Part shown: piece by piece, positions 36,340 through 53,387 of the stretch
Numbering within the stretch: the stretch's first letter is position 1
How the letters are laid out: each line of letters opens with the position of its first letter
Program-made: the position numbers and the translations under genes
Origin: Prorocentrum cordatum
Taxonomy: Eukaryota > Sar > Dinophyceae > Prorocentrales > Prorocentraceae
Direction: 5' to 3'
Assembly (NCBI GenBank): GCA_963575745.1
Contig: CAUYUJ010017997.1
Location: 153,744 to 217,743 of the forward strand
Length of the DNA: 64,000 nt
The notes under the pieces: model-generated
The model's input: the letters and a program-made list of their open reading frames with translations, nothing else
Told to the model about the DNA's origin: nothing
Databases searched by the model: none

Positions 36340-36445
36340 CCGACCAGGTCCCGGCCGGTCCCCGGCCGGTCCCCGGCCGGGTCCCGGCCGGGTCCCGGCC
36401 GGGTCCCGGCCGGGTCCCGGCCGGGTCCCGGCCAGGTCCCCCCGA
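36340..36445 (+). repeat. GGTCCCGGCCG tandem repeat
   Basis: Nine or so 11-bp units GGTCCCGGCCG(G), each partly self-complementary (CCGGCCGG). Confidence 0.9.
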
Positions 36446-36454
36446 GCGCTCCAT

Positions 36455-37070: not shown

Positions 37071-37156
37071 GGCCCTCGGGCAAACGGCAGACATGAGACT
37101 GTATGGGCCGGCGGAATGAGCGAAGCGATTAAATAAATGGAGGCGAAAGGGAGGGC

Positions 37157-37161
37157 GATGG
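37157..37161 (+). other. Target-site duplication, left copy
   Basis: GATGG directly outside the 3' LTR, identical to 53,049-53,053 outside the 5' LTR. Five bp is the usual length for copia-type integrases. Confidence 0.8.
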
Positions 37162-37430
37162 AGTCGAAAGTGAGCCTGGTAACTCAAATAGCATCCGATT
37201 CCATGATAGACATCGGATGACAAATAGCGTCCATCGCTCTGCTGTGGTAGTACAGTATGAGGGGTGGACGGATAAGATAGGATAAGATCGATGTAATGAT
37301 CTTTCCAGCACATAGCGAACACTCGCGGTGTCCGGGCAAATAGGGCGCGCGTGCCTTGGGCCAAAGGCAACGGCGCGCGCGAGCTATGCTCCCGATACTA
37401 TAACATATCCCAAAGACCTGCCCTTAAAGT
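37162..37430 (-). repeat. 3' LTR (longer form)
   Basis: 269 bp. Blocks 37,162-37,191 and 37,308-37,430 match the 5' LTR; 37,192-37,307 is absent there. On the coding strand the extra part carries ATG TGC TGG... (from about 37,313) that stays open and enters the gag frame at YLSYQAHF. The longer form is therefore probably ancestral, with the gag start codon inside the LTR. Confidence 0.88.
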
Positions 37431-37796
37431 CGGGAGGGGAGGAGACGGAGAGCATAGTCGCACGCAAAGGTCGCGCGCACGACTGTTTGCAAAAAAGAAA
37501 ACAGTGCGTACAGTCTGGCCTAACACCAGACTGCAAGGCGAGTTTCCTCGCAAAGTATTTCACGCAAATACAAGACAGCCCCTTCAAACAATGAAGGGCT
37601 ATCGGCTCAGTTAGAGGTAAGCCAAACAGGCCATACCTCACCAAGCAAATGTGTATTAAGGCAAAGAGCCTGAGTTGTACGAAGCCGGCTCGTTGCCAGG
37701 CGTGAAATATAAGGCTCGTTTCCGAGCAACTAGAGGGGCGCCTTTATAGTAGGCGCCCGTGCTGGCAAATTGGACCGCGAGGGCAACAAGGACAGA
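37431..37796 (-). other. 3' untranslated region of the retrotransposon
   Basis: It lies between the RNase H stop and the 3' LTR. It holds two perfect GNRA hairpins (37,538-37,551 and 37,714-37,727) and a longer hairpin GGGCGCC-TTTATAGTA-GGCGCCC at 37,736-37,758. No polypurine tract is seen on the coding strand next to the LTR; the purine run (GGGAGGGGAGGAGACGGAGAG) is on the other strand, which is unusual. Confidence 0.6.
37736..37758 (-). other. 7-bp hairpin near the 3' end of the element
   Basis: Plus strand GGGCGCC, loop TTTATAGTA, GGCGCCC. It lies in the 3' untranslated region, just after the last coding stop, and differs in loop and stem from the GNRA family. Possible RNA processing or packaging role; inference only. 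Confidence 0.5.
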
Positions 37797-38504
37797 CTAA
37801 AATTGATTAGACTTAGGTTTGTCTCTGTCCTCGGGACCCCGAAAGGGAACAAATTGCTTCACGTCATACTTAAATGACTGAGTGCCTGACATCACTTCCA
37901 GAAGCAGCTCCCGATCGATGCTTCCCTTTGTATGCCCATCTGCGGTCATATCCCTAGTATCACACCATTGCACATTATGTACTATACCTATATCCATGAG
38001 CTCACGTATCCAGCTGATATGTCCAAGCAGAGTCCGTTCTGTAGGTATTTTGAGATCCCTGCTTGATAAAGATTTGTAGACGGACTCGGCGTCTATGGTA
38101 AGAGAGACTTTGATAGCTAGGCCTCCAACTTCACGCATGTCTCGTAGTTGTCGTGGAGTCAAAGCTCCTGCCTTAAGCTCGTGGAGAGTAATGAGCGTAG
38201 GGTAACACTCATCAAGGTTATGTGCGGCTGCAAGTGCCTCCGCAGCATAACTGGACCTCACCTGTAATCGGTGTGATTTGCATAGTCCGTCACAGAGGTG
38301 AACGACGGACTTGCCTTGAGGCGAGTTTCCTCGCCGTAGTACGTTGGCCCCGCGTATGCCGTAGCCCTTGGTCTCGTCATCCTCCTCCCCGGTAAGCTTC
38401 CGATACCCCGAATCGCTATGGATGTCAACTTCATTCGTCGGCTTCATCCGAGGGAAGGTGATACGTTTCGGGCTGCTGATCAGCTTTCGCGTCACAGCAT
38501 TCAA
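37797..38504 (-). CDS. Polyprotein part 10: RNase H
   Basis: 235 codons from a TTG; it continues part 9 directly (LNAVTRKLISSPKRI follows SPPICKSDV). Copia RNase H catalytic residues are in place: Asp31 (HSDSGY), Glu90 (SSYAAEALAAAH), Asp139 (LTIDAESVY) and Asp190 (DTRDMTADGHTKG, the family's LAD-x-TK block). It removes the RNA strand during reverse transcription. Normal stop at 37,797. Its frame contains one GNRA hairpin with a 6-bp stem (38,320-38,335). Confidence 0.9.
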   Translation of the reverse strand: MNAVTRKLISSPKRITFPRMKPTNEVDIHSDSGYRKLTGEEDDETKGYGIRGANVLRRGNSPQGKSVVHLCDGLCKSHRLQVRSSYAAEALAAAHNLDECYPTLITLHELKAGALTPRQLRDMREVGGLAIKVSLTIDAESVYKSLSSRDLKIPTERTLLGHISWIRELMDIGIVHNVQWCDTRDMTADGHTKGSIDRELLLEVMSGTQSFKYDVKQFVPFRGPEDRDKPKSNQF

Positions 38505-40504
38505 ACGTCCGACTTGCAGATTGGTGGGCTGTTGAATTTTCTGAAGAGAGAGACCACGTATACCATGAGCCAGATTTGGGTAAGAAGGGCATAGGCGAGG
38601 GCTCCTCGCAGGCTGACGAACATGTCGGTAATGAGTTTCGTGGCTTTGGCATCGGCCGCCGCTCCTGTAAGTTCTGGGTGTGTGATAGGACGTAGTTGTT
38701 TGATATACTCGTCCTGGTCCATGATCACATCTCCTTGATCATTCTTAGTGTAGCGAACGGCGCAGTTCGTATATGTGTGCTTGTTGAGCTTGCATTTGCC
38801 AAACACCTTTTCGACACGTTGTACATAGTCGTCTATATTTTTCTCTAGACCTGTCATGTTAATATCATCGACATGTTTTGCCGTCAGAAGGTCTTGGCTG
38901 AATTCAAATTCAGGATCGTAGCTGGTCGGTGCAAGTCCTATAGCTCGTGTGGTCGTACGAAGTTTGAGAGAGAACGCTCTTGGAGCGTCCTTTGTACCCG
39001 TTCCTGGTTTGAGGCATCTAAGACAGTGTCGACTTTCGTCGTAGGATGAGAAGCCGGGTAATGTACGAAGTACCTGAGCACTTCCTGGTGGAAGAGTAAA
39101 GCAAACCATGCGAGTTTCCTCGCCGGTGGCATGGGCAAGTTCCTCATAGGTCAAACCCTTGAGGAACGCCTTATCGATATCCATGGATGCTAAGATCCAC
39201 TCTGGATGGCATGCCGCTTCACTTGCCAGGAGTCGTTGGGACTGCCTTCGGGCGGTTCCCGAAAATGTTTCCACATCAAAATCCTCAATATCCATAAATC
39301 CACGCAGGACCAGTCTGAGACGAATGGTTTTAACGCTCTCGGTACCCATCTTTACGAACTTCCACTTGTATACATACCTGGATGTCATGATGTTGGAAGC
39401 TTTGGATAAACCATACATCTCAAAGCATCGGTTATCAATCCAGATTTTGAGCTCAGTATACAAAGCTTCACTAACCTCCTTTGGACGTGCTGCTATGTCG
39501 GCTTTGGTCAGTAGATCATCTTCTTTGACAACCACAGCACGTTTAGCAGCAGAGGATACATATACTCTCATCGTTGCGACCATATCGGTATCGAGCTGTG
39601 CAAGTTGAGTCTGATCCAACACTATTTTTGACACTTCTGATGTAAAGCATAATTCAACGTAAGGACCATATTCATCACTGTCAAGAGAGTAGCTCTCGTC
39701 GGTTGTGGTTGAACAAAGAGAGACTAGACAGGACTCACGTGATTTCGGCTCGTCTCCGAGCATATCTGATGATATAATATCATCTTCGTCCATAAATGCT
39801 GAAACCAAAACACATTGGTCGGGCAGCATAGTTGTTGGGACGCAATAAAGATAATAATCGGTAATCGTCGTAGGATGAAGGTCCATACGTAGCTCGTCGT
39901 ACCACTCTTCCAGCATCATAGCTTCGATATTGTGTTCCTCATTTTCCTCATAGATTGTCGACAGACGGCCTTCACTCGGCGATGAAGCATCTGGTGTGTC
40001 TGGAGAAGGCCTGTTTCCAGGCGACTCGTGTTCTCCAGACGTGTTGCTTGAATGCTGATATTTAACCAAATCGTCGTGAAATCCTAAGGAAGGGACACGT
40101 GAAGTCAAGCATTGAATAAGTCTGGAGTGAGTGCTACCAGTGATCTGAGAAATGTTTAAGCCGGTGCCCACACATTCGTAATAGTGGAACGCCGGGCTGA
40201 TGTCGTTGTCATAGTGGATCAGCGTAGACCCGGTGGCGTACTTTACTGCAGGTAGGCTTGACACACTCTTAGCCAATCGAACTGCTACTACATGTTCTAC
40301 TCGGAAGTAATTTCGCACGAGATACTGTAGTGCTAAGTGTACGCGCGGGTGAAACTTGCTGTCGTCTGACAGATTAAGGTTTCCCTTGTAATCGGGGATA
40401 TAACCGAAAACTTTGGCAGGTTTCCCTGCGCTGAGGTGTGCCACATAAGCAAGGACGGTTTGCATGGCCATATTACCATGCCAAGTTCCCGCGTGAGGAG
40501 ACAT
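38501..40504 (-). CDS. Polyprotein part 9: copia-type reverse transcriptase
   Basis: 667 codons. An N-terminal region (HPRVHLALQYLVRNYFRVEHVV) links integrase and RT, then comes an acidic variable stretch. RT is recognised from about residue 340: IMTSRYVYKWKFVKMG (copia fingers block), ILASMDIDKAFLKG (first catalytic Asp, about 440), LKPGTGTKDAPRAFSLKLR, and AKHVDDINMTG (about 543), the catalytic Asp pair with His in place of the usual Tyr/Phe of YVDD. It copies the RNA into DNA. The last part (LRGALAYALLTQIWLMVYVV) leads into RNase H; a TGA at 38,501 follows a -1 type change in a T run (GTTTGAA), consistent with loss of one T. Confidence 0.92.
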   Translation of the reverse strand: MSPHAGTWHGNMAMQTVLAYVAHLSAGKPAKVFGYIPDYKGNLNLSDDSKFHPRVHLALQYLVRNYFRVEHVVAVRLAKSVSSLPAVKYATGSTLIHYDNDISPAFHYYECVGTGLNISQITGSTHSRLIQCLTSRVPSLGFHDDLVKYQHSSNTSGEHESPGNRPSPDTPDASSPSEGRLSTIYEENEEHNIEAMMLEEWYDELRMDLHPTTITDYYLYCVPTTMLPDQCVLVSAFMDEDDIISSDMLGDEPKSRESCLVSLCSTTTDESYSLDSDEYGPYVELCFTSEVSKIVLDQTQLAQLDTDMVATMRVYVSSAAKRAVVVKEDDLLTKADIAARPKEVSEALYTELKIWIDNRCFEMYGLSKASNIMTSRYVYKWKFVKMGTESVKTIRLRLVLRGFMDIEDFDVETFSGTARRQSQRLLASEAACHPEWILASMDIDKAFLKGLTYEELAHATGEETRMVCFTLPPGSAQVLRTLPGFSSYDESRHCLRCLKPGTGTKDAPRAFSLKLRTTTRAIGLAPTSYDPEFEFSQDLLTAKHVDDINMTGLEKNIDDYVQRVEKVFGKCKLNKHTYTNCAVRYTKNDQGDVIMDQDEYIKQLRPITHPELTGAAADAKATKLITDMFVSLRGALAYALLTQIWLMVYVVSLFRKFNSPPICKSDV

Positions 40505-43500
40505 TCGATGTATAGTGTGTGACGAGCATCAGGATACATCACAATTACCTCACGAGATCCTGCCTTGACAACAATATGTCCTCTTTCAGGCACATTTCGG
40601 ATCACCGGGAATGGGCCATTCCAGCCTCCATGGTCGTCCTTGGTGGCAGTAGGTCGGTGGTAATCGACCAAATCCCCTGATGAGTAGAGGCGAGCACCAT
40701 CAGGAGTCGTCTTAGCCCTAAGAGCCCGATTTGTCTTGGCCACAGCAGTAGCCTGAGTTATAGCTTCTAGGCTGACTTCCCTTACACGACGTTCTCGTTC
40801 GTGTCCTGAAGTCTCGGGCCCCTTGGGAAAGTCAAGGGTATCGAGATCAGGGGGGAAAGAAGGCTGACGTCCTGTGTGTGCCTGATATGGCGATACTCCG
40901 TTATAAAACGTAAACGCATTAGTAACGAAGATGCCTTCCGCCAATACTCTAGTGAATGCAACAGGGATGTGGTGTCTATTCAATTCTTCCTCAATCATAT
41001 GGAGGACGCCTCTGAGAATGCCGTTTCGTGACTCAATTGAAGTCGCGTGTTGGCCAGGTGCTCGGATACGAAGTTCCGCGCCCTTATTGGCCATCATGGT
41101 TTTAGCGGCATCGTTATTCAGGGCGCCTTCTCCGTCTGAGTATAAAACTTTGAAGGGTCCGCGATAGGCAATCCAGCAGTAGTGGTAGGCGTCGATGATA
41201 GCGTCGCGTTCTCTGTCGGAAATTTCGAGGCCTGCTGCCAGGCGAATACAACGATCCATAATATGAAATATGGTCCGTTTCTTGTAAAACATGAGGTCCA
41301 TTCCCCCTTCATCGAGCCAGTTACCAGGAAGGCTCACCGATGGTAGCGTTGAGTTTCCTGGACGTTCCCATGCTCTGCATTCCCGACAGGTATCGCAAAC
41401 TTCCTTGATCATGTTCAGTCGAACGTTATCAAGCCCCACCTTTTCGAAGATTAGCCTCATCTTTGGCTCCTTCGCATGATGCCATCGCAGATGCAGTTTT
41501 CGGAGTTCCTTTTTCACGACATGGGGTTCGTGACTACGGAGACTCTGTAGACTGTGTTGGATGTCGAATCTCGTCCAGCCGGGTAGTCGTGGAGCCCCAG
41601 AGCCGGTGGAGGCAAGAGGGTTCCTTGTAGCTCTCCGTAGTTGGTCCCCTGTGTTAACTGCGTCTGGAGGTGGTGGTACGCCTTGTAGACGGCCGCGGCG
41701 GGCCGCTACCTGTGGCGCTTCGCTAGAAGACGCAGAAGGCGTGTTTCCACGCTCGGGGGCGTCTCGTAGCATGTCGTAGCTGCTGGCACCAGATGTCGGA
41801 TCGACGTTGCCGAAGGATCGTGGTCGTGGTGGCCTGGCGTGTGCGCCTTGACGGCCACCTGAAGCTGAAGCTTGGCCCTCACCAGGTTTAGGTAAGGGTT
41901 TCCACCAAGCTGGCACGGTTTTGCCTTCGGGGTCGTGGTCGTCTGGTAGTTTAAATGGTTCAGCAAAACGACATTTACCAGGTTCGGTATCGAGGTGGTT
42001 CTTAACACCCTTGCTTCTCGTAAGATCCCTCTGACATGCTGGACATGGCCAATATACAGAAATGGAATCACGATATTTACATTGCGTAGGGTCTCTGTTA
42101 TGGCTAGGACTGTCCTTTCGAACGTTGTCGATGCATGCCGGGCAAGTAGCCACCTTTGGGATGATACGATCATCGATGCGTCTCATACCTTCGCCTGGTT
42201 CGGCTTGATCGGGAAGGTCTGCAGGATAAGCATGTGCGGTACTTATAGGCGCGTTTCCGCGCGTGGTGTCAATGGCTTTCGCCAAATAGACGGCTTCCAC
42301 GAAGGCAGACTGCAGTCGTCGAGTGTATTTTTGTGCCAGTGAAAGCTCTGTATTGCACGGTTGTGCGTGCACATGCTGACCGTTGCATTTGAGTCGCTCA
42401 AAGGGTTTAAGAATTGTCTCGTCGTTGCTGGTGATATTTGTCGGCTTCTTAATATAGTCACCAGTCGTATCTTTAAGTCCCGTAGCGCATTGGTCAAAGC
42501 GCACGGTTGTAATGTGTGGTCGGTTGGCAAGCTTCGTCCATGGAGAAATATCATCCACCCATGTTCCTGTAGGTTGTTCGCGTATAAACCACCTCCGAGC
42601 GTCATCTTGGGTTACAGCAATTTTACCACAATAAGTTATGTGTGGTAAGTCTTCTTTATGGTGCTGTTCCCAAGTGTTGTAGTTGACTTTGTAGTTGTAG
42701 TAGGATGGTGGTCCTGTGGTGCGGCAGCTGGGTTGCAGCATGGCAACTCGTACGTAGCATATAGCAAAGTAATGATCTATAACCTGCTGCACCGAGGGGT
42801 CTCCCAGGTCGACATATGTAGTCTGGTCCAGGTTGCCGCCTGAGGAAAGTCCCCTTGAGAAGGCAAGCTCTGAGATGCCACCCTCACCGCCACAAAGCTC
42901 CAACATATCCACGCAGTTGTTATGACCATAGCATAGCGTAGCAACTATGCTGTATATGTTAGCGCGTGTGTCGGGCATAGATGTGGGGAGGGCAAGGAAC
43001 AGGTCATCGTCCTCGTCGGAGCTCATCAGCTCAACAGGGACGTCAGTACTCCAGGTTGCCATAAGATCCTGTCCGAGTCCTGACAAGTCGTCGCCGCAAT
43101 CATCGTTTCCGTCTTCAACGTGCTTTTTAATGCGGCGAGGCTTGATGCCTGCTTCCTTTTCGGCTTTGAGCCTCTCCTTCTGCTTTATACGCGACTCAGT
43201 GGGCAAAGCTTGCTCGTATTGTTCGTCGGTCTGTGTACTCATTGTCGCGGTTGAATGGGTACATGCGTCAATCGCCAGAGTCGGGAGGGGGAGAGAACAG
43301 TCATCTATGATGACGCGTCGATGTTTCTGTGGTGATTGAGTCGGCTCGTTTCCGAGCAAGACCGGTTCCTCGGGTTGCCAATACAACCGAGCACTGATGT
43401 TGGCAACCCCTGCAGGTAATGGTGCATGCCAATCATAGCCTGTTGGTTGATCGGTAAGTGAGATATCCTGAATAACCGCATTGGTATCCAGGTTGATTGT

Positions 43501-43938
43501 TACACGGCGGATGACTTCAGACCATTTTGGTCCTCCCTTATTAGTCGTCACGTAGTGACGGGTGTTATGGTCTGTACGTGTATACGTATTCAAGTATACG
43601 GGCACGTTTCCGTGCGTGGTGGTGCTTCCCAGGATGTTGTCGTTCAAGTGGCGGATGAGTGTAGTACGTGTCTGAGCTCGCCATTCAGCATGCCGCACTG
43701 TATGACCGTACCAATCCAACACATGTTGTGGTATTGCCTGCTTACAGGTACATGCCCACAGCTTCGAGCTAATCGGTATTGATGATGCTACCTGCATATA
43801 AGTACCGTTTGGTGTACTGTCTTGCATATTGAACCGAATACCGAAGTGACACAAACGCATCCGTATTACTGACAACTTTAGATCTTCCAACGGTATCACG
43901 TACTGGAGATAACTTCCAAACATATCCTGGGGGACCAA
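40333..43938 (-). CDS. Polyprotein part 8: methyltransferase-like domain, zinc segment and integrase
   Basis: 1,201 codons. Residues 330-520 resemble a C5-cytosine methyltransferase: DMLELCGGEGG (SAM-binding motif I), LQPSCRTTGPPS at the place of the catalytic PC loop, IREQPTGTW at the ENV motif, then RFDQCATGL. The loop reads PSC in place of PC, so activity is uncertain. At 590-670 are CPAC pairs and CPACQRDLTRSKGVKNHL, a zinc-binding stretch. The integrase follows: HLRWHH...CDTCREC (HHCC) at 820-855 and a DDE core with Asp in GGMDLMFY (about 881), Asp in LYSDGEGAL (about 930) and Glu in SIESRNG (about 967). It inserts the cDNA. A -1 change at about 40,500 leads to RT. No perfect hairpin lies in the integrase part. 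Confidence 0.85.
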   Translation of the reverse strand: MVPQDMFGSYLQYVIPLEDLKLSVIRMRLCHFGIRFNMQDSTPNGTYMQVASSIPISSKLWACTCKQAIPQHVLDWYGHTVRHAEWRAQTRTTLIRHLNDNILGSTTTHGNVPVYLNTYTRTDHNTRHYVTTNKGGPKWSEVIRRVTINLDTNAVIQDISLTDQPTGYDWHAPLPAGVANISARLYWQPEEPVLLGNEPTQSPQKHRRVIIDDCSLPLPTLAIDACTHSTATMSTQTDEQYEQALPTESRIKQKERLKAEKEAGIKPRRIKKHVEDGNDDCGDDLSGLGQDLMATWSTDVPVELMSSDEDDDLFLALPTSMPDTRANIYSIVATLCYGHNNCVDMLELCGGEGGISELAFSRGLSSGGNLDQTTYVDLGDPSVQQVIDHYFAICYVRVAMLQPSCRTTGPPSYYNYKVNYNTWEQHHKEDLPHITYCGKIAVTQDDARRWFIREQPTGTWVDDISPWTKLANRPHITTVRFDQCATGLKDTTGDYIKKPTNITSNDETILKPFERLKCNGQHVHAQPCNTELSLAQKYTRRLQSAFVEAVYLAKAIDTTRGNAPISTAHAYPADLPDQAEPGEGMRRIDDRIIPKVATCPACIDNVRKDSPSHNRDPTQCKYRDSISVYWPCPACQRDLTRSKGVKNHLDTEPGKCRFAEPFKLPDDHDPEGKTVPAWWKPLPKPGEGQASASGGRQGAHARPPRPRSFGNVDPTSGASSYDMLRDAPERGNTPSASSSEAPQVAARRGRLQGVPPPPDAVNTGDQLRRATRNPLASTGSGAPRLPGWTRFDIQHSLQSLRSHEPHVVKKELRKLHLRWHHAKEPKMRLIFEKVGLDNVRLNMIKEVCDTCRECRAWERPGNSTLPSVSLPGNWLDEGGMDLMFYKKRTIFHIMDRCIRLAAGLEISDRERDAIIDAYHYCWIAYRGPFKVLYSDGEGALNNDAAKTMMANKGAELRIRAPGQHATSIESRNGILRGVLHMIEEELNRHHIPVAFTRVLAEGIFVTNAFTFYNGVSPYQAHTGRQPSFPPDLDTLDFPKGPETSGHERERRVREVSLEAITQATAVAKTNRALRAKTTPDGARLYSSGDLVDYHRPTATKDDHGGWNGPFPVIRNVPERGHIVVKAGSREVIVMYPDARHTLYIECLLTRELGMVIWPCKPSLLMWHTSAQGNLPKFSVISPITRETLICQTTASFTRAYT

Positions 43939-44263
43939 ATACTATGATCTTCATGCGGAGTTTCTTGGCTTTTATCAACAGGTTCTGGATACGTGACCAA
44001 TGTGGGGCCACTCTCTTTCCTGGAGTTCGTACGTACCAGTCACCCGGAGTACTAATCCATATGAGAGTGTAATCTCCACTGATCACCGCACCTAGGTAGT
44101 TTGTGCCCACGCTTGTCATAAGTTCGTTGTGGGAAATGCGATCACAAATATATCCTCGTGTGCGAAGGTCGGCACAGGCCTCCCTCGTATCTTCAATGAC
44201 AAAAGCCCTCTTACTAAGGCAGGTTACCCCGCTGTCCTTGTTACCCCCCGGCTTTTCAGCCAA
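43769..44263 (-). CDS. Polyprotein part 7: unassigned globular domain
   Basis: Same frame as part 6, separated only by the TGA at 44,303, so it probably continues that protein. The sequence is compact and well mixed: YTLIWISTPGDWYV, a basic stretch, LRMKIIVFGPPGYVW. A +1 frame change at about 43,890 leads into part 8, where LSVIRMRLCHFGIRF and GTYMQVASSI follow and look like the same domain. Beta-strand and Pro-Pro pattern suggest a Rossmann-like fold, but I do not recognise the family. Confidence 0.6.
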   Translation of the reverse strand: MAEKPGGNKDSGVTCLSKRAFVIEDTREACADLRTRGYICDRISHNELMTSVGTNYLGAVISGDYTLIWISTPGDWYVRTPGKRVAPHWSRIQNLLIKAKKLRMKIIVFGPPGYVWKLSPVRDTVGRSKVVSNTDAFVSLRYSVQYARQYTKRYLYAGSIINTD

Positions 44264-44302
44264 CAGGCAAGACGACGAGGGGGCGACGTCGCCCTGCCAT
44301 CT

Positions 44303-46201: not shown

Positions 46202-47223
46202 ACCGCACAGGTATCTTCCATCCCAGTAAAGACCTCTACGTCTGCTGCCCTGGGATATACCCGCCGCTGCCTCTCCAGTACCGTCTCGGAGGGCATGAAG
46301 GCTGATGGGGGAGTCCCCGTTAGGTCCATCACCTCCGGCACTTCGACATTTGGCATGGAAGTGGTAGGAGTCACGGCGGGCGAGTTACCTCGCAAAGGTG
46401 AGCCCCTGTTTCTCACCACATCAAGTGCAGCTGCACGCGACTGATCCCGCACACTTTGCACCGCCTGCCTTCTCCTGAAACATGCCTGCTGAGTGTGGTG
46501 AGTCTGCCTGATGTAGTCAGGCACGCCCCTACTGCCAGACGATATTGAATGGGCAGTGGGCTGTGCAACCACCTCTGGTGATGTTGGTGAAGGCATGAAG
46601 GCCATGTGCGGGTACATGGAATGGTCACTGCAGCGCACATTAGTGAGGTTATGCATCTGATCCGCCAATTCGCGAACAAATTTGCTCGGAACCCTTGACC
46701 CATCAGGGTATAATGGCGGGTTCATCTGCGCTGGTGGTGGCCTCTGGCCCTGAGACATGTTCGGATGGGCATTGAACGCCGGGATAAAGGCTCGTTGCCG
46801 AGCAGGATCCCGCGGGTTGGGACCCTCAGGCTCCCAGGACCAGGCTGGCCTCCACCTCTGCCCACTTGGGCGAGGCAGATTATGGCTCTGCACCTGCTGC
46901 ACCGCGGCCGCCACTCTTGAGCGATAGTCGTCAGGTACACCAGCCCTGTGGTGGCTTGGTGTGCCAGGCAGGTTTCCCTGCTGACTTGTTGGCGTGCCGG
47001 GCGGCATCATGTTGAGGAGGGCTGTGCTGTGCTCAGCCCTAGCCGCAGCTATCCTCTCCATGAGAGTGCCGTTTGTGGCAGGGCGGACAGGTGTCCCGAA
47101 CGGGGATTGCGCAGGTGGTGTGCCCAATGGAGTCATGCCCCTTGGGGCGTGCATGCTCTGAGTGGGGCTTCCATGCATTTGCTGAAACAGAGCAGGTCCG
47201 CTTGTAGGCAGGTTTCCCTGCAC
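46036..47223 (-). CDS. Polyprotein part 5: Pro/Gln-rich linker and first half of a RING-H2 finger
   Basis: 395 codons. It begins at the hairpin-derived QGNLP peptide, with no ATG; it is a continuation, not a separate gene. Mostly Pro, Gln, Met and Ser-rich, probably disordered. Near the end TCAVCLEEFQPRDSVY gives the first Cys pair of a RING-H2 finger. A -1 frame change at about 46,175 moves the rest of the finger into part 6; after it this frame reads unrelated residues to 46,036. Confidence 0.75.
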   Translation of the reverse strand: MQGNLPTSGPALFQQMHGSPTQSMHAPRGMTPLGTPPAQSPFGTPVRPATNGTLMERIAAARAEHSTALLNMMPPGTPTSQQGNLPGTPSHHRAGVPDDYRSRVAAAVQQVQSHNLPRPSGQRWRPAWSWEPEGPNPRDPARQRAFIPAFNAHPNMSQGQRPPPAQMNPPLYPDGSRVPSKFVRELADQMHNLTNVRCSDHSMYPHMAFMPSPTSPEVVAQPTAHSISSGSRGVPDYIRQTHHTQQACFRRRQAVQSVRDQSRAAALDVVRNRGSPLRGNSPAVTPTTSMPNVEVPEVMDLTGTPPSAFMPSETVLERQRRVYPRAADVEVFTGMEDTCAVCLEEFQPRDSVYRLSAITCSTRDAGIQMWWATLQTSVGGIPSSHHVLSAEHLAS

Positions 47224-50200
47224 GGCCTGACGATTCTCGTAGCCATAGCGGACATTGCTCCCTGGCCTGCGGCCCAGGGGTCCTGCTGGTATAACCTGTC
47301 CGCCAGCTGTTCTACCTGGTCAGGGTTCAGCGCGGCTGCGATCTGATCCAGGTCCGAGGTACTGATGGCCTGCCAAGACACGGCACTAGGCCCTTGGCTT
47401 GGGGCACGGCTTGGAGCCGCGCTCCCGGCCTCACTCTCGGTGATCATGAAGATCCGATGGATCTCAGGCTGGTTTCCCAGCTTGGTAGGGCTATAGTGGT
47501 CCCCAACTTCCCTGTGGAGGTAGACCATGGGGGGGTCGACGCCCTCTTGGTCTCGGGACCACTGATATTTGACGCTAGCAGTGCCAACGTCAGCCCACCT
47601 GTCAGGAGCAGACATCATTGCGACAGAGACTCGCGCATGGCGGTTCCCCAGATACTCTGGATTACGCCAGTGCCTCCCCGTGGACAGGTCCTCTACATGA
47701 GAGATGTAATACGGTTCAATGATACCGTTATTTCCCTCAGACAAGAGGACTCCGTTATCGGACCAACAGAACTTCATGCCATCTTGTATGGCCTTACGCC
47801 AATCTACAAAGATGATGATGTCTGAGTCTGGGTCCCACCCACTGTTCACGGCACGGCGGCGAACTGTCGGCACGAAATGAATGTGCGACCGGCCTGTCCA
47901 CCTTTTCTTCGTGTTATGCTCAGGTCTACATGACAGGCCGTGCCACATAATACCTTCGAAGGCGTGCCATCGAGTGCCATGCATGGCCACTTCGGGGTAT
48001 GGGGCCGGTCTCCCGGCAGGTTGGTCGCACAGCACAATGTAGCTGTACAGCGACCATGGAGCTTTCAATGTCCATGAATGCCCCTGAGAGGCGCGGATGA
48101 AGATAGCGGGCTCGCCGGAGTCCCGAATCAACACCTTGAACTGTAGGCGCTGTTTTTCTTCTCCGTCTGGTTCGCGGACATGAACAACTTCCATCATGAT
48201 GGCTGCTAGTTGATCAACCGAGCGCCCATATAGCTGCTCGTTGATGACTTTGGCCTCGTCATATTTTGGATTATACCCAGCGTGTTTTGATTGACCTGTG
48301 TTCCACGGATAATGGTTCACGAGCTCCACGAGGTTAACCCAACCATCATGATCATCGAAAGATTCCAGGCCCAACACAGGATTGCGTGGTCTGTCTGGCG
48401 CATGTCTGCATATCCTGCTGAGAGCTTTACTCAGCTGTTTGAGAATGTCATTTGATGTGGGAAGGATTCCAGCTTTCCTGCATTCCTTCATGAATGTCTC
48501 ATCCACCGAGCGTATCGGTGGGATCTTCCGAAGCGCAAGTCTATCCCTGATCACATTCGGAGTCCCACTAGTGAAGGACGTGTCACCTGGGTGGTGCAGC
48601 TGATCCACTGGCGGGTTTCCCCGCATACGAGCCTCTGTCGCTGCGGAGGCTGCGGCTCCAGAAGAGGATGAAGCTGCGGCGGCAGCGCCTGGCGGGTTTC
48701 CCCGCGGTGATGCGCGACTGGCGCTGCCCCTGATCTTCGGCACCCAGGTACCCCTCGACATAGCACCTTCATCGGACCTCCTGGAGCGGGCCGCCACAGG
48801 CGAAGCTGGCGCAGGGGCATACCCACTGCGCTCGAAAGCTGCCGCCCTTTTCGCAATGGAGCTGCTGCGACTAGGCGGGCGTCTTCGTTCCTCCACAGGG
48901 TCCTGAGGTTGCTGCTTGGGCTCAGACGCTTGTGTAGGAGTTGCGCCAATCGGCGGCCTCGGAAGTTCAGTTCGAGGCACCTCCATCTGCACGTCTGGCC
49001 TAGGGTCCTGAGAGCTCACCTTCGGTTTCGGCCCCGAGGACGGCTTAGGTGTCGGGGGTTCACTCTTAGCCTTCGAAGTTAGTGGGAGTGGGGGCTTCGT
49101 GGCCCCCTTCATGTATATCTTGCTGGAATCCTCCAACATATTGCGAGTTGCCTCGCGTGTGCGTTCTTCTGCTGTCCGCATACGCTCCTCGTCCTCCGCC
49201 ACACGTTGAGCCTTTTTCTCATCCTTGATTGTCGGTTCAGGTTGTTGGGACTGGCTAGAAACGCCAGGCGAGTTTCCTCGCATTCCAGGAAGACTAAAGA
49301 GCGCGTCTTTTTCTTCCTGGGTCATGGGCACCAGTCCCCTTGGAGCCGTGGGAGGTTTATCCTCTTCGGCCTTCGGATCCAAATGGCTCAAGATCCCAAG
49401 ACGGTGATTCACTTCTGCGATCTCGTCCTGTGTCATTGGGATAAGTTGCGGATGGCCCTCTTTATGAGGGGTGTTGCCTCTGTTGGGACTCAGGCCTTCG
49501 TTGTTGCCAACGGGGCATCCTGGCCTGTGGTTCTGGGACGGTTCGGAGCAAGGTCCGCAAGCTGCGTGAGGCCTATACTGCTTGCGAGCCGCGATAATGT
49601 CTCGCAGCTGAGTCCGCGCTTCTTGAATTTCAGGGCGGCGGATATTTGTTGCAAGCTGATAGCCTCCGCGGATGGCCTTGCCCTCACTGTCCCTATAAGC
49701 AGGGTTGCCCTTGCCGAAGGCCGAGTGTTCCCCTGTTCGGCGTCTTGGATCGTTATATGGAAGTAGATGGCCCCCTCTCCTGAGAGCGTGTTCTTTTGGG
49801 CCAGCCTGCCTCCACTCACGAGGAAGTCGAGCCTGTGGATGTGGCTCTTCTCTGACGCGCGTATGGGAACGAGACCTTCCGGTGTTCTCATCAGAAGAAG
49901 CTGCCGAAGCAGCAGGAGCGGCACCCGGTGGAGGTGCCTGAGGAGGCTCCTGTACGATCCCAGATGGATCGTCCGATGGAGGCAGGTCTCCCTGCTGGAT
50001 GGAACTCGGCGCAAATGGCGCTTGTGCCGATGGTGATGATGATTCAGACTCGTCAGGATCGAAGTCAACCTCTTCCTCACCATTCACGCCCATCATGAGG
50101 ATGGTGACGTCATCCTCATCTAACCCGCAACCATCGCCTTCTACTTCTTCTGATGTCGAACTACCGATGATGATGGCCATTGGCGTATCTGGTACAGGCA

Positions 50201-51083
50201 GGTTTCCCTGCATAGCCGGCGTCTGTGCGTCGCTCGGCTGCCCCGGGGTAGGAGGCGCCGCTGTCGGCTCGGGCTCGTTGCCGAGCACAGGCTGCCCGGC
50301 AATGTTGCGCATGGCCGTATGGTTTGGCCACATTCCCACCGCCTGGAGACCCCATCCTGGCGGAGGAAGATCATGACCGCGCATAGCAATAGCCATTTCT
50401 AGAGCATTACGCCATCTACCACGGGAGTATATCAAGTGTCTCTGCACGTCCTGAGGATGCACGCTGTCAATGAGAGTCAGAGCTGCCAACAACAGCTCTG
50501 AGCTACCACAAGCGTCAGTATCCTGCATTATCATAATGTCAGCTTCGATATGTTCTTGACTCTCAGGATAACCAGTAATAAGTATCTCATGCATCCTCAT
50601 GAGGGTCTGCAAAAGGGTGCGTGGTCCATATTCGCCTGGAGCAATCGAACCAGGAGGTATAAACGGAGTATCTGGTTCGCCTGCAATGAAGGCCTGAACA
50701 AATGCCTGAGACTCCATTTCGATTAAGTCTTCAGTGGTCTGGGGATATTCTCCCATCAAAGAAAGCCTGTTTCCAGGCGGGATTTCGGGCAGAGGTTCGA
50801 GGTGTCGTTGAACCTCGGAAGGCGAAGCCTCTATAGTGGTGTCCTCGTCGCTGCTCTCGTAGGCCATGATGTTGCCTGGGTTCCCGAACATCCAGTCGAA
50901 GAAGGATAAAGGGTAATTTCCCAGCGCCCCGTGTTCCACGGGAGTGAGCTCGTTGTTGCCCTCAACGAACCTGCGAACATACTCGAGGTAGTACGCGTAC
51001 AATCCATGACCATACGCCTCGAGCTCGTCGACGTTGTCCACGCAGCTGACCCAAGTGAAAAAATATCTGCTCCATAGCCTCAA
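47133..51083 (-). CDS. Polyprotein part 4: linker region and KptA/Tpt1-like domain
   Basis: 1,316 codons. Residues 1-300 are acidic and mostly helical; 300-860 are Pro/Ser/Lys-rich, probably disordered. At about 880-1,140 stands an RNA 2'-phosphotransferase (KptA/Tpt1) domain: LSKALSRICRHAPD, DGWVNLVELVNH, IFIRASQGHSW, HGTRWHAFEGIMWHGL, SHIHFVP and DGMKFCWSDNGVLL, in the family order. Tpt1 transfers a splice-junction 2'-phosphate from tRNA to NAD. Three of the catalytic Arg-His-Arg-Arg tetrad appear kept (RH of CRHAP, Arg of IRASQGHS). The fourth, the Arg of F-x-R-S, is Trp here (codon TGG, one C-to-T change from CGG). Sixteen of the GNRA hairpins lie in this part. Near 47,225 the path shifts -1. 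Confidence 0.8.
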   Translation of the reverse strand: MRLWSRYFFTWVSCVDNVDELEAYGHGLYAYYLEYVRRFVEGNNELTPVEHGALGNYPLSFFDWMFGNPGNIMAYESSDEDTTIEASPSEVQRHLEPLPEIPPGNRLSLMGEYPQTTEDLIEMESQAFVQAFIAGEPDTPFIPPGSIAPGEYGPRTLLQTLMRMHEILITGYPESQEHIEADIMIMQDTDACGSSELLLAALTLIDSVHPQDVQRHLIYSRGRWRNALEMAIAMRGHDLPPPGWGLQAVGMWPNHTAMRNIAGQPVLGNEPEPTAAPPTPGQPSDAQTPAMQGNLPVPDTPMAIIIGSSTSEEVEGDGCGLDEDDVTILMMGVNGEEEVDFDPDESESSSPSAQAPFAPSSIQQGDLPPSDDPSGIVQEPPQAPPPGAAPAASAASSDENTGRSRSHTRVREEPHPQARLPREWRQAGPKEHALRRGGHLLPYNDPRRRTGEHSAFGKGNPAYRDSEGKAIRGGYQLATNIRRPEIQEARTQLRDIIAARKQYRPHAACGPCSEPSQNHRPGCPVGNNEGLSPNRGNTPHKEGHPQLIPMTQDEIAEVNHRLGILSHLDPKAEEDKPPTAPRGLVPMTQEEKDALFSLPGMRGNSPGVSSQSQQPEPTIKDEKKAQRVAEDEERMRTAEERTREATRNMLEDSSKIYMKGATKPPLPLTSKAKSEPPTPKPSSGPKPKVSSQDPRPDVQMEVPRTELPRPPIGATPTQASEPKQQPQDPVEERRRPPSRSSSIAKRAAAFERSGYAPAPASPVAARSRRSDEGAMSRGTWVPKIRGSASRASPRGNPPGAAAAASSSSGAAASAATEARMRGNPPVDQLHHPGDTSFTSGTPNVIRDRLALRKIPPIRSVDETFMKECRKAGILPTSNDILKQLSKALSRICRHAPDRPRNPVLGLESFDDHDGWVNLVELVNHYPWNTGQSKHAGYNPKYDEAKVINEQLYGRSVDQLAAIMMEVVHVREPDGEEKQRLQFKVLIRDSGEPAIFIRASQGHSWTLKAPWSLYSYIVLCDQPAGRPAPYPEVAMHGTRWHAFEGIMWHGLSCRPEHNTKKRWTGRSHIHFVPTVRRRAVNSGWDPDSDIIIFVDWRKAIQDGMKFCWSDNGVLLSEGNNGIIEPYYISHVEDLSTGRHWRNPEYLGNRHARVSVAMMSAPDRWADVGTASVKYQWSRDQEGVDPPMVYLHREVGDHYSPTKLGNQPEIHRIFMITESEAGSAAPSRAPSQGPSAVSWQAISTSDLDQIAAALNPDQVEQLADRLYQQDPWAAGQGAMSAMATRIVRPCRETCLQADLLCFSKCMEAPLRACTPQGA

Positions 51084-51627
51084 AGTCCTGGAGGCTTAGA
51101 TACTCAATGAATGGTTCACTTGAGCCAAAATGGACTTCGGTCGACCTGCCCTTTCCATTTCCCTTCACTGGACAATCTCGCACAAGATGATCGGTACTAC
51201 CACACTCATGGCATTTAAGAACCTGGCCGTCTCTACCTCGCGGGTTTCCCCGCCTACCTTTGCCTTTTCCTGAGGTCTCTCTACGGCCTTTGCCGCGGCC
51301 CTTTCCCCCAAAGAATATCTCATTATGTTGTTCATCTGAGAGCCTCTGGAGAAATGCCGCGATGCCTCGTCCGTTCAACCTCCGACGACCTCGCTTACCT
51401 TTACCTTTTCCATTAAAACTTCTCCGTATCCTCCTTCTAACACGACGCACTGGTTTTCGCGCGAACCTCCCCCACCTTCGTTTAGCCTGTTGTAGTAACC
51501 AGAACAAATGTTCAGCACGCTGATTGTCGTTATCCATATTCATGATATCTGACCAATCTAAAGCTTCAACACCATCTGATGATATAGTGTCTGCATCGGT
51601 GCCGGAGTCGAAATCCTCGTCTCCCAA
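50962..51627 (-). CDS. Polyprotein part 3: nucleocapsid with CCHC zinc knuckle
   Basis: 221 codons, in frame with part 2 behind the TAA. An acidic N-terminal stretch is followed by a very basic segment (RRVRRRIRRSFNGKGKGKRG, about residues 63-85) and a classical retroviral zinc knuckle CHECGSTDHLVRDC (C-x2-C-x4-H-x4-C) at about residues 138-152. These bind the genomic RNA. Directly after the knuckle the DNA encoding VHFGSSE is an exact 15-nt copy of the spliced-leader core. The frame runs on to 50,962 but the polyprotein shifts +1 into part 4 near 51,070. Confidence 0.85.
   Translation of the reverse strand: MGDEDFDSGTDADTISSDGVEALDWSDIMNMDNDNQRAEHLFWLLQQAKRRWGRFARKPVRRVRRRIRRSFNGKGKGKRGRRRLNGRGIAAFLQRLSDEQHNEIFFGGKGRGKGRRETSGKGKGRRGNPRGRDGQVLKCHECGSTDHLVRDCPVKGNGKGRSTEVHFGSSEPFIEYLSLQDFEAMEQIFFHLGQLRGQRRRARGVWSWIVRVLPRVCSQVR
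51119..51133 (-). other. Exact spliced-leader core inside the retrotransposon
   Basis: The coding strand carries CCATTTTGGCTCAAG, identical to the 3' 15 nt of the dinoflagellate spliced leader, translated in frame as part of VHFGSSE. Roughly 0.0001 such matches would be expected by chance in 64 kb on two strands. It is oriented as a leader would be for the downstream coding part. Possible reading: a trans-spliced cDNA was captured and fused to gag here. Confidence 0.6.
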
Positions 51628-51741
51628 GTAGGTGGATACACCGTCGGTTAGGGGGTTTGATTCCCCCCATAAAGAACGGTGTGGTTGTGGTTTTCTAGAA
51701 GGAGGGCTGGTTGCCCAGCTTGGTTGTGATCGATCCCCTGC

Positions 51742-52230
51742 TTATAAAGCAGTGGATTCTCCTGGGTCATCGGCCCATATGCTTGAGGGCCCGTTTCCAG
51801 GCTGGGCTTCAGTAGTCAAGGTAGTGTAGAAATTTCCACTACCAGATCCCCTCCCCCTTCCAAACACAGATCCTATGTTACCAGGAGACCGTTCAGATAG
51901 GTGGCCTATCGAACGCATCCTCTCCAGCAACTCATCATACTGTTGTTGTGTTCGGGGCATTTGGTGATTGAGTGGCTGTGAGAGTTGCATGGCTCGCTGG
52001 TTGCCGACGCCTAAGGCGCGGAATAGGATAGTGGTTAGCAGTTGGAAGTTGGGAACATCGAATCCCTTAGACTGTGCCTCAAGTCGGGCCATTTCGAATC
52101 GGGTAAGGGTGACATCGATTCGTTCCCCGTGAGGCACGTGGAAGTCGATGAGTTGTGTGCCGGAAGTGAGCTGTCGCTCATCTTCCAGGCGTTCGAACTT
52201 CATGCTTAGGAGGAACATGATGTAGGTCAC
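51742..52230 (-). CDS. Polyprotein part 2: gag body
   Basis: 162 codons continuing gag in the +1 frame. It is helical and rich in charged and hydrophobic residues (YIMFLLSMKFERLEDERQL, then FHVPHGERIDVTLTRFEMAR, which resembles the gag block where a flexible loop precedes a helix near the C-terminal half). It ends in a Gly/Arg/Ser-rich tail and an in-frame TAA. The same frame then stays open for another 38 codons into the next part, so the stop looks like one point mutation or a read-through site. Gag packages the element's RNA. Confidence 0.75.
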   Translation of the reverse strand: MTYIMFLLSMKFERLEDERQLTSGTQLIDFHVPHGERIDVTLTRFEMARLEAQSKGFDVPNFQLLTTILFRALGVGNQRAMQLSQPLNHQMPRTQQQYDELLERMRSIGHLSERSPGNIGSVFGRGRGSGSGNFYTTLTTEAQPGNGPSSIWADDPGESTAL

Positions 52231-52255
52231 TGGGTCGGTGTGGACCCCATCGATG

Positions 52256-52957
52256 TCAGCACCATAGTTTATATATAATGTCAGGCGGTACCCTCATGGC
52301 GAGTGTCCTCGCTAGGCCACCTAGGCCGCGCTGTATTGCGGCCGCTTGGGCCTGTGGCGTCATACGCCCGCTTGTAACGTTGAGCCATGCGTTGACCTCG
52401 TAAATGTACTCGCGAAAAGGTACATTACCTTGAGGGTCCCAATATGGGCCACGTGTTTGCCCATCGGTGCTGTTTTCTCCACGACGCATGCGTCCGATTG
52501 CTGCCCCCAGCGCGAACCGTATAATAGCGAAAACGACTAGCCCGAGAATGTGTAGAGAAGGACGGTTATTATGCGCGTTGCCGCGCTGGGGTAGCGCATT
52601 GTCGAATCTTCGAGGCGCTCTATCTGGCGGGTCTCCCCGCCTCTGCTTCAAGTATTGCGCTGTTAGCTCGTTGCCGAGCGGTTGGTGGTAACGCAGTGAT
52701 GAAGCGCATATGGTACCAATCTGGTCGTCTAGACGTCGTACCTCTCGTGTTGCTTCTTGCTCTTGAATAGATCCTCGTAAACGTACTGGGAGTGGTGGCG
52801 CAGGGTGGTAGGTGGTCACGAAGATCGTGCCGAAGAATATGAGGCTAAGAAGAGCAAGAGCTGACCACACGAGAGTGCGGCCAGCTCCGCTACCAAGTCG
52901 AAAGTGAGCCTGGTAACTCAAATAGGCACATAGCGAACACTCGCGGTGTCCGGGCAA
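52256..52957 (-). CDS. Polyprotein part 1: membrane-segment leader and gag start
   Basis: This 233-codon frame begins at a TTG in the LTR; no ATG precedes residue about 157, because the 5' LTR lacks the part that holds it. The first 21 residues are LTR-encoded. Two strongly hydrophobic segments stand at residues 29-50 (WSALALLSLIFFGTIFVTTY) and 135-155 (LHILGLVVFAIIRFALGAAI), separated by a basic, Pro-rich stretch. From about residue 180 the sequence turns into a gag-like helical region (EYIYEVNAWLNV). Membrane helices are not usual in copia gag. It ends at a TGA after a frame change near 52,258; the next frame takes up the gag sequence directly. Confidence 0.7.
   Translation of the reverse strand: MPGHRECSLCAYLSYQAHFRLGSGAGRTLVWSALALLSLIFFGTIFVTTYHPAPPLPVRLRGSIQEQEATREVRRLDDQIGTICASSLRYHQPLGNELTAQYLKQRRGDPPDRAPRRFDNALPQRGNAHNNRPSLHILGLVVFAIIRFALGAAIGRMRRGENSTDGQTRGPYWDPQGNVPFREYIYEVNAWLNVTSGRMTPQAQAAAIQRGLGGLARTLAMRVPPDIIYKLWC
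52884..52895 (-). other. Primer-binding site, initiator-Met tRNA type
   Basis: The coding strand reads TGGTAGCGGAGC one base after the 5' LTR. It matches 10 of 12 positions of TGGTATCAGAGC, the site complementary to the 3' end of initiator Met-tRNA used by many copia elements. It fixes the LTR boundary and the element's orientation. Confidence 0.75.
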
Positions 52958-53048
52958 TTAGGGCGCGCGTTCCTTGGGCCAAAGGCAACGGCGCGCGCGA
53001 GCTATGCTCCCGATACTATAACATATCCCAAAGACCTACCCTTAAAGT
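52896..53048 (-). repeat. 5' LTR (shortened)
   Basis: It is 153 bp and matches the other LTR except for three substitutions and a missing stretch of about 116 bp between 52,925 and 52,926. Ends do not follow the TG...CA rule (plus strand AGTCGAAAG...CTTAAAGT). The coding frame of gag begins inside it. The missing stretch corresponds to the part of the other LTR that holds an in-frame ATG. Confidence 0.9.
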
Positions 53049-53053
53049 GATGG
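53049..53053 (+). other. Target-site duplication, right copy
   Basis: GATGG directly outside the 5' LTR, the partner of 37,157-37,161. Confidence 0.8.
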
Positions 53054-53054
53054 C

Positions 53055-53275
53055 TCCGGGAGCTGGGCGGCCAAAGGGGGAAAGGGGGGGGGGGCCCTTT
53101 CAAAGGGGGGGGGGGCTCACCCCAGCTCCATTAAAAGGAGGGAGGGGGGTAGCTTGGAAGCCCCCCCCCCCCCCCTTTCCGGACCACGAAAAGGGAGGGA
53201 GGGGGGGGGGGGGGTTCCGAAGCCCCCCCCCCTTTAGCAAGGAAGGGGGGAGGGGGTAACTTCAACCTGGGGCCC
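53055..53275 (+). repeat. G/C homopolymer-rich tract
   Basis: Alternating runs of G and C with GGGGGCTCACCCC and GGAAGCCCCCCC words, related to the 33.3-33.8 kb minisatellite. It begins right next to the retrotransposon's right target duplication. Confidence 0.75.
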
Positions 53276-53309
53276 CCCTTCTAGTCTGTCGGGCCCCACG
53301 AGCGCGGTC

Positions 53310-53368
53310 TATCCTATCTATCTATCTATCTATCTATCGATATATCTATCTATCTCATATATCTATGA
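53310..53368 (+). repeat. (ATCT)n microsatellite
   Basis: ATCT tetranucleotides with a CGATAT interruption. Confidence 0.9.
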
Positions 53369-53387
53369 ACGATCTCGACAGCCACCC

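Follow-up and report, generated by a model that had tools for sequence, protein, structure and literature searches.

A one-sense array of conserved GNRA-type hairpins along a Copia-type retrotransposon of Prorocentrum cordatum

Dispersed packaging signals in genomic RNA have been described for single-stranded RNA viruses, MS2 among others, in the model of Twarock and Stockley (PMC6281560). In alpha- and gammaretroviruses, hairpins with a GACG tetraloop are involved in packaging (PMC516450). How long terminal repeat (LTR) retrotransposons select their own RNA is poorly defined (PMC4974528, PMC11381356), and a 2016 review of Ty1 and Ty3 expects scattered additional packaging sites. Here, we analysed a stretch of 64,000 nucleotides from the dinoflagellate Prorocentrum cordatum (GenBank assembly GCA_963575745.1, contig CAUYUJ010017997.1, positions 153,744 to 217,743; the window in what follows), which holds a Copia-type LTR retrotransposon of 15.9 kb on its minus strand (37162-53048; LTRs 98-100% alike in their common parts). 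The coding strand of this element carries a real array of short hairpins. Selection acting on the nucleic acid as such maintains them, whichever codon phase they occupy, and also outside the open frames.

A hairpin array of one strand sense

Between positions 37538 and 52679 start 54 perfect hairpins with a 5-bp stem and a 4-nt loop. The loop is GNRA on the coding (minus) strand in 37 of them, on the plus strand in none and on neither in 17; outside this interval the window holds 104 such hairpins, with GNRA loops twice on each strand. In this motif the two outer pairs of the 5-bp stem (G-C, C-G) and the G-C pair that closes the loop are fixed, and the two positions between them are free but paired. 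The loop is G-N-N-A, in most cases GNRA, and the hairpin is followed by a C (34 of 42 hairpins have C at base 15, and just 4 have G at base -1). In its fixed form, GCNNG-GNRA-CNNGC, it occurs 38 times on the coding strand between the LTRs (35 fully Watson-Crick, two with one G.U, one mismatched), and not once on the opposite strand there or on either strand of the remaining 48.1 kb of the window. With ten positions constrained and the four middle ones free, both free pairs would be Watson-Crick by chance in 1/16 of the copies, about 2, against 35 of 38 observed. A preliminary description of this stretch had counted about 40 hairpins of a single sense with about twelve stem sequences; the array and its sense hold, and the number becomes 42, with 13 different 5' arms, once variants with one G.U pair or a GAYA loop are included, or about 42-44 with two sites that are decayed in the window copy.

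The array begins 216 nt inside the edge of the 5' LTR and ends 107 nt short of the 3' LTR; the LTRs themselves contain no perfect hairpin of this geometry on either strand. Each codon phase is occupied, as had been proposed, although very unevenly (29/6/5 for the longest open frame; overlapping frames make the phase uncertain at 47208 and 40416), and two more hairpins outside long frames near the 3' end presumably lie in the 3' untranslated region (UTR). The integrase segment (40,430-42,248), previously thought to be free of hairpins, holds one at 41739-41752.

Can composition or coding constraints generate such an array? In 300 dinucleotide shuffles we obtained a mean of 0.14 motif copies (maximum 2), and in 300 synonymous-codon shuffles 3.6 motif and 1.4 paired copies (maxima 10 and 5) against 37 and 35 in the real sequence, counted over ten open reading frames with overlaps counted twice; codon-order shuffles likewise failed to yield the array. 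The remaining 17 non-GNRA hairpins of the region stand against 15.1 expected from base composition, and stem-6/loop-3 and other geometries reached counts close to those found elsewhere in the window. With these strand, window and shuffle counts, and with the conservation among copies given below, the probability that the array is a chance or composition artefact is practically negligible. The 120 viral-contig loci L001-L120, chance matches to the 15-nt pattern, served solely as background DNA, a biased one as each locus was picked for holding one perfect hairpin.

The predicted pair probability exceeded 0.5 in 31 of 37 hairpins with 75-nt flanks and in 27 of 37 with 150-nt flanks, compared with 9 of the 17 other hairpins. 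Covariance models of Rfam 15, run on 36000-54000 (E up to 1), placed none of their 27 listed matches inside 37431-52895. Three copies of CCTAAG, which we take to be half of the 11-nt tetraloop receptor, gave no lead.

Conservation in other copies and in relatives

We compared the window copy with 20 stretches representing ten other copies, 6-23% diverged, from the same 4.13-Gb assembly; they were picked for holding several GCAGG hairpins and are thus not a random sample. Orthologous hairpins are mostly intact across the ten copies, with some losses and length changes. Substitution rates in the seven copies that diverge most are 3.0% for stems and 22.1% for flanks, with sharp edges (base 14, 0.000; base 16, 0.38); since intactness in the window copy was the basis for choosing the hairpins, their apparent rate may be lowered about two-fold by our estimate, not eight- to eleven-fold. 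For all 42 hairpins, 90 of 3813 stem cells and 2372 of 13617 flank cells are changed. The opposite strand, codon-preserving shuffles and the stems of related copies were the checks named in the preliminary description, and all three speak for the array.

The contrast is equally strong at third codon positions. Across all ten copies and for 28 hairpins of one phase, leaving out the outlier at 49499, 26 of 1026 third positions are changed in the stems and 883 of 3061 in the flanks; with the outlier, for 29 hairpins, the figures are 38/1058 (3.6%) and 928/3157 (29.4%). Random in-frame placements (2000) gave a mean change of 0.286 and a minimum of 0.18, compared with 2.5% in the stems without 49499. 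Hairpins of the other phases and the 3' end show rates of 0.012-0.018 in stems and 0.13-0.16 in flanks. Together with the loss of the array in synonymous shuffles, these values bear out the earlier claim that codon-level selection is insufficient.

Changes are found in 78 of 1900 stem pairs: 10 two-sided Watson-Crick, one two-sided G.U, 29 one-sided to G.U, one one-sided to Watson-Crick, 36 one-sided mismatches and one two-sided mismatch. One two-sided Watson-Crick cell (45808) and the two-sided G.U come from a misaligned stretch of copy C337, which leaves nine two-sided Watson-Crick cells. Sound two-sided changes stand at four sites, namely 52627, 49268 and 45889 and, in addition, the decayed site 50925. 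An apparent 15-nt insertion in the same copy was also the misaligned hairpin 45808. Site 50925 is G-C in seven copies, C-G in two and decayed in the window, and site 45889 shows both end states (A-T, G-C) and both intermediates (A.C, G.U) among the copies. Counted by cells, two-sided Watson-Crick changes amount to 10/77 compared with 2126/43638 in control column pairs (p 0.004), several copies sharing one change. One-sided states favour G.U over A.C, by cells (29:13 against 12085:14685 in the control, p 0.003) and as distinct states (21:12, p 0.025).

In the loop, the second base (N7) varies almost as fast as the flanks, with 19.1% in the seven most diverged copies, the third at 0.13 and the fourth at 0.09. 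These rates bear on whether the selected molecule is RNA or DNA, as the identical palindrome is present in DNA, where recombination, strand transfer or integration could make use of it, either as a cruciform or as a hairpin of single-stranded plus-strand cDNA; loops closed by G..A can be stable in DNA too. However, a nearly free N7 with more constrained R8 and A9 is the GNRA pattern of RNA, the GNRA copies of the window are one-sense, and G.U beats A.C, so that we regard a DNA-level site as improbable. The RNA-level role proposed in the preliminary description gains accordingly: selection on the nucleic acid is strongly supported, and loop pattern and G.U preference point to RNA.

Is the array a property of this family only? 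In 26 pieces of the window family and one distant relative, perfect GNRA hairpins number 348 on the coding strand and 12 on the other. A relative with a 64% identical reverse transcriptase (RT), L158, carries 16 perfect hairpins with a GCCA loop on its coding strand and none on the opposite strand, and two of them align with GNRA sites of the window (38321, gap-free; 39748, in a gap-rich linker). This related family keeps the hairpin architecture with the loop GCCA; base 15 shows no preference there, compared with C in 325/380 in near copies. In the distant relative L151 (on three neighbouring stretches; RT 43-47% over the longer segments of the tblastn match), pairable GNRA hairpins number 17 versus 1 on the other strand. 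Genome-wide, one GCCA 14-mer occurs 8343 times versus 127 for its reversed control, and one GAAA 15-mer 5249 times versus 3. Of five isolated or edge hits that were fetched, three belong to near copies, and the other two are located within or next to diverged relatives; no search for isolated copies was made in the remaining genome.

In 52 metagenomic relatives, known as proteins alone and with hairpins deduced from peptides, hairpin-type pentapeptides number 45 versus 8.7 in shuffles. Residues 1 and 4 co-vary as reverse-complementary codons in 57 versus 28.7 of 120 distinct instances (20,000 permutations, maximum 48). For this count, 46 rows where the protein context is conserved had been removed by eye; before their removal it was 65 versus 37.7 of 170, and a control class, with a fifth residue not codable with a first C, was significant too. 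Taking one instance per protein and residue pair, covariation is 34 versus 20.6 of 93 (p 0.0007). A single linker column reads LGDEP in the window and LGNEL, HGDVL, RGNSL, HGDVH and HGNVH in other elements, and also the unpairable HGNTH and HGNEL. GCCA-type peptides are not enriched in these proteins (8 versus 5.3 shuffled). The relatives' DNA, sought in viral contigs and genome contigs, was not found.

These proteins also bear on a protein-level repeat, in which selection would act on xGNxP-like linker peptides, for instance in the role of protease sites, with the palindrome as a mere consequence. Indeed, 29 of the 40 coding hairpins share one phase, the relatives are rich in the same pentapeptides, and peptides of the other phases are mostly absent in the relatives examined, which also argues against phase-blind placement there. 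Nearly frozen third codon positions refute this explanation as a sufficient cause, and 11 hairpins in two other phases, two outside long frames, the codon covariation of residues 1 and 4 and the synonymous shuffles make it highly improbable.

Mere spread has to be weighed as well. The preliminary description allowed for a self-dispersing micro-element. In that case a palindrome would copy itself inside the element, e.g. by template switching in reverse transcription, and would only be tolerated in linkers. Three hairpins stand in tandem at 24-nt spacing in L151 (2931-2992, minus strand, GCAA loops) and in L158 (coding-strand bases 2011-2072, GCCA loops), the peptide DPGNRI is repeated in protein P0039 (the deduced hairpin of which is absent from the host genome), many sites lie in variable linkers, and gaps surround hairpin peptides in protein alignments. 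Birth by duplication is therefore possible for some sites. Nevertheless, the stems, third codon positions included, are almost unchanged; hairpins 39110 and 40416 in conserved pol arose by substitution, the relatives having the same length and other residues; and the remainder of the window is devoid of the fixed motif. Among the copies, no sure clean insertion against an empty site is found at the DNA level. Spread may explain how hairpins are born, not how they are maintained, and as a full account it is very improbable. Chance, a protein-level repeat and mere spread are thus each excluded as sufficient causes.

The element and its features

The element belongs to Ty1/Copia by its LTRs with a 5-bp target-site duplication and by an RVT_2-type RT above the cut-off. 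Its integrase-like frame (43941-40336), assigned through homologues, one of 27 with PF00665, and without a direct Pfam hit, sits upstream of the RT frame. Coordinates are collected in Table 1.

Table 1. Features of the element, listed 5' to 3' along the coding strand (window positions). Hairpin rows rest on hairpin scans of the window and comparison with other copies.
Feature	Position	Strand	Remark
Target-site duplication GATGG, right	53049..53053	.	read in sequence
5' LTR	52896..53048	-	direct repeats D5 (98%), D8 (100%)
Primer-binding-site-like TGGTAGCGGAGCTGGC (TGG..)	52880..52895	-	abuts 5' LTR; role by analogy
Hairpin GCTCG-GCAA-CGAGC	52666..52679	-	
Hairpin GCGGG-GAGA-CCCGC	52627..52640	-	pair 5 is A-T in copy C56
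Hairpin GCGCG-GCAA-CGCGC	52573..52586	-	
Hairpin GCGAG-GACA-CTCGC	52299..52312	-	
Open frame, probable Gag capsid part	51745..52293	-	by place alone
Hairpin GCCTG-GAAA-CGGGC, one G.U	51789..51802	-	
Open frame, nucleocapsid-like: Arg-rich stretch (by eye) and CCHC zinc knuckle	50965..51741	-	zf-CCHC E 1.2e-4, above cut-off
Hairpin GCTGG-GCAA-CCAGC	51706..51719	-	
Hairpin GCGGG-GAAA-CCCGC	51240..51253	-	
Open frame with KptA/Tpt1-like domain (residues 886-1121)	47136..51095	-	PTS_2-RNA E 8.7e-25; PDB 7yw3 E 3.5e-11
Decayed hairpin site	50912..50925	-	intact in 9 other copies: GCTGG/CCAGC (7), GCTCG/CGAGC (2)
Hairpin GCCTG-GAAA-CAGGC	50765..50778	-	
Hairpin GCTCG-GCAA-CGAGC	50273..50286	-	lost in copies C2, C130
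Hairpin GCAGG-GAAA-CCTGC	50198..50211	-	
Hairpin GCAGG-GAGA-CCTGC	49982..49995	-	
Hairpin CGTTG-GCAA-CAACG	49499..49512	-	atypical stem, badly conserved among the other copies; possibly a chance hairpin
Hairpin GCGAG-GAAA-CTCGC	49268..49281	-	GCGGG/CCCGC in four copies
Hairpin GCGAG-GCAA-CTCGC	49143..49156	-	
Hairpin GCGGG-GAAA-CCCGC	48692..48705	-	
Hairpin GCGGG-GAAA-CCCGC	48611..48624	-	loss/length change in copy C70
Hairpin GCCGG-GAGA-CCGGC	48004..48017	-	within KptA-like domain
Hairpin GCTGG-GAAA-CCAGC	47468..47481	-	
Hairpin GCAGG-GAAA-CCTGC	47208..47221	-	overlapping frames
Hairpin GCAGG-GAAA-CCTGC	46968..46981	-	
Hairpin GCTCG-GCAA-CGAGC	46790..46803	-	loss/length change in copy C200
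Hairpin GCGAG-GTAA-CTCGC	46380..46393	-	
Hairpin GCAGG-GATA-CCTGC	45889..45902	-	GCGGG/CCCGC in four copies, two more having A.C and G.U states
Hairpin GCAGG-GAAA-CCTGC	45808..45821	-	
Hairpin GCGGG-GTAA-CCCGC	45319..45332	-	
Hairpin GCGGG-GAAA-CCCGC	45286..45299	-	
Hairpin GCGGG-GCAA-CCCGC	44751..44764	-	identical in ten of ten copies
Hairpin GCAGG-GAAA-CCTGC	44662..44675	-	
Hairpin GCCAG-GACA-CTGGC	44565..44578	-	
Hairpin GCGGA-GCAA-TCCGC	44397..44410	-	
Hairpin GCGGG-GTAA-CCTGC, one G.U	44219..44232	-	
Open frame with integrase-like part	40336..43941	-	27 homologues, one with PF00665; own Pfam hit none
Hairpin GCACG-GAAA-CGTGC	43602..43615	-	
Hairpin GCTCG-GAAA-CGAGC	43344..43357	-	
Hairpin GCGCG-GAAA-CGCGC	42249..42262	-	
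Hairpin GCGTG-GAAA-CACGC	41739..41752	-	within 40,430-42,248
Open frame, reverse transcriptase	38504..40528	-	RVT_2 E 1e-9
Hairpin GCAGG-GAAA-CCTGC	40416..40429	-	AGKPA versus AGKTP in most aligned relatives, equal length; overlapping frames
Hairpin GCCTG-GAAA-CAGGC	40009..40022	-	
Hairpin GCTCG-GAGA-CGAGC	39748..39761	-	aligned with GCAAG-GCCA-CTTGC of L158, gap-rich linker
Hairpin GCGAG-GAAA-CTCGC	39110..39123	-	RT domain; GEETR in place of GEKER
Open frame, C-terminal pol end (RNase H-like, by place)	37800..38738	-	72% identity to L158 counterpart; no Pfam hit
Hairpin GCGAG-GAAA-CTCGC	38321..38334	-	orthologous L158 site GCGTG-GCCA-CACGC, gap-free stretch
Hairpin GCTCG-GAAA-CGAGC	37714..37727	-	putative 3' UTR
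Mismatched hairpin site	37688..37701	-	pairable in four other copies
Hairpin GCGAG-GAAA-CTCGC	37538..37551	-	putative 3' UTR
3' LTR	37162..37430	-	direct repeats D5, D8
Target-site duplication GATGG, left	37157..37161	.	read in sequence

The 3' LTR contains a 116-nt insertion at 37192-37307 that the other LTR lacks, and in the tract preceding the 3' LTR (37431-37450, minus strand) the coding strand is rich in pyrimidines instead of the purines to be expected there. A frame that follows the primer-binding-like site (52259-52894, minus strand) shows two hydrophobic stretches, membrane-helix-like by eye, which is odd for the start of Gag. The element carries a KptA/Tpt1-like RNA 2'-phosphotransferase domain, to our knowledge unusual for a retroelement; a protein search with this frame as the query returned no match, and a weaker remnant is present in L151. 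Shortly past the zinc knuckle, an open frame contains at 51119-51133 (minus strand) an exact 15-nt word of the dinoflagellate spliced leader, as if the part after it had been captured from a trans-spliced, reverse-copied mRNA; a second leader-like word, with 3 mismatches in 21, lies at 1632-1652 (minus strand). Both words are in keeping with a dinoflagellate host. A RING-like cysteine pattern, recognised by eye at 46036-46384 (minus strand), is divided between two overlapping frames, so that the window copy is probably frameshifted there; in L151 the RING cysteine pattern (by eye) lies within one frame. A 101-bp tandem repeat array (34266-35574) adjoins the element.

Possible readers and comparison with known systems

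Most likely, the hairpins are RNA recognition sites with family-specific loops. We predict that a protein binds the motif in RNA and reads both its tip and its base, and the likeliest reader would be the element's own Gag, by way of its Arg-rich stretch and CCHC knuckle. We consider it an even call that Gag binds the hairpins multivalently in packaging. Three points make Gag our preferred candidate: the sites are spread over the genomic RNA and spare the LTRs, a family-specific loop suggests a partner encoded by the element, and retroviral packaging involves tetraloop hairpins (PMC516450). Along 15 kb, numerous sites of low affinity would add up to avidity, by which full-length sense RNA of the right family could be collected and condensed into the particle. 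Substitution or a short duplication would create new sites, and the loop might, as our guess, change from one family to the next in a co-evolution of Gag and RNA.

Tentatively, we extend Gag binding to a kind of password: each family would write its own hairpin type (loop, stem and flank) tens of times, its own Gag would read it by avidity, and families sharing a cell would avoid cross-packaging by the loop switch from GNRA to GCCA at orthologous sites. If true, self/non-self recognition of genomic RNA would be a distributed, countable code and not one packaging domain. It is possible, if somewhat doubtful, that the RNA-level reader is instead one other than Gag in assembly, i.e. a host RNA-binding protein or the KptA-like or RING protein, or that the hairpins serve nuclear export, localisation, stability or silencing escape. 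Recognition by the KptA-like or RING domain and dimerisation had been named as candidate roles in the preliminary description. The conservation at the RNA level, the third positions and the G.U evidence fit such a reader equally, and the family encodes a KptA/Tpt1-like domain, the remnant of which occurs together with RING cysteines in the distant relative too; a family-specific loop preference, however, is easier with an element-encoded reader than with one common host factor.

Several observations weigh against an array that is read by Gag. The coding strand of L158 also holds four GNRA hairpins, three of the window type, and its other strand four; a degraded relative on contig C186 has just 7 versus 2; some sister copies show the loops GAAG or GCAG; and the spacing of the hairpins is barely more even than random (CV 0.75, P 0.037). 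As distinct states, two-sided Watson-Crick changes are 4/58, about the control share of 4.9%, and one of the four (45808) is misaligned. Since two-sided changes show no excess as states, the weight of the evidence lies on conservation, on stems that are varied yet paired within the element and on the G.U excess; the compensatory changes announced earlier stand at the four sites named above. Finally, the sequence that Ty1 needs is located close to its termini, most of its interior, up to 5 kb, being dispensable for transposition (PMC4974528); packaging of a Copia-type element thus need not use dispersed sites.

How does the array compare with short repeats and hairpins described elsewhere? Rickettsia palindromic elements are short palindromic repeats inside genes that are viewed as mobile, as are the palindromic selfish repeats of Volvox organelle DNA; the window hairpins are, in contrast, held at orthologous sites by selection. 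The box B hairpin of phage lambda (boxB) resembles them in its 5-bp stem and GNRA-like loop and is bound by the Arg-rich N peptide, at one or two sites and in antitermination. Nematomorph mitochondria keep inverted repeats of up to 284 bp in coding sequence (PMC6649704); these palindromes are long, and the abstract makes no mention of a shared loop motif, while the window hairpins are short with a common loop. No report of such a hairpin array was found in the literature searched, preprints and most subscription journals lying outside the search.

Closer to the proposed function, the genomic RNA of the LTR retrotransposons Ty1 and Ty3 is recognised by Gag (PMC4974528, PMC11381356); the texts searched contain no occurrence of 'hairpin' (PMC4974528) or of 'tetraloop' and 'GNRA' (PMC11381356). 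With the retroviral GACG hairpins the window shares tetraloop hairpins in a retroelement, the tie to packaging being known in retroviruses. Those hairpins are few and lie in the leader, whereas here about 42 run along the whole RNA with GNRA or GCCA loops, and GACG is absent among the 42 window loops, loops element-wide being GNRA/GNNA.

The array works like dispersed packaging signals, among which it would belong if Gag bound its sites. Both have several stem-loops with one motif scattered in genomic RNA, the recognition role being predicted here. In single-stranded RNA viruses the motif is loosely defined, and measurements show that coat protein binds it, whereas the window, in an LTR retrotransposon, presents a near-invariant motif with varied but paired stems, family-specific loops and predicted binding. 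It offers the dispersed-signal idea a case with a near-invariant motif, and strong selection for structure runs through its coding sequence. Each candidate cis site can be itemised with its free and fixed positions, occurrences in the genome run into thousands, and since one genome contains at least two loop types, specificity is directly testable.

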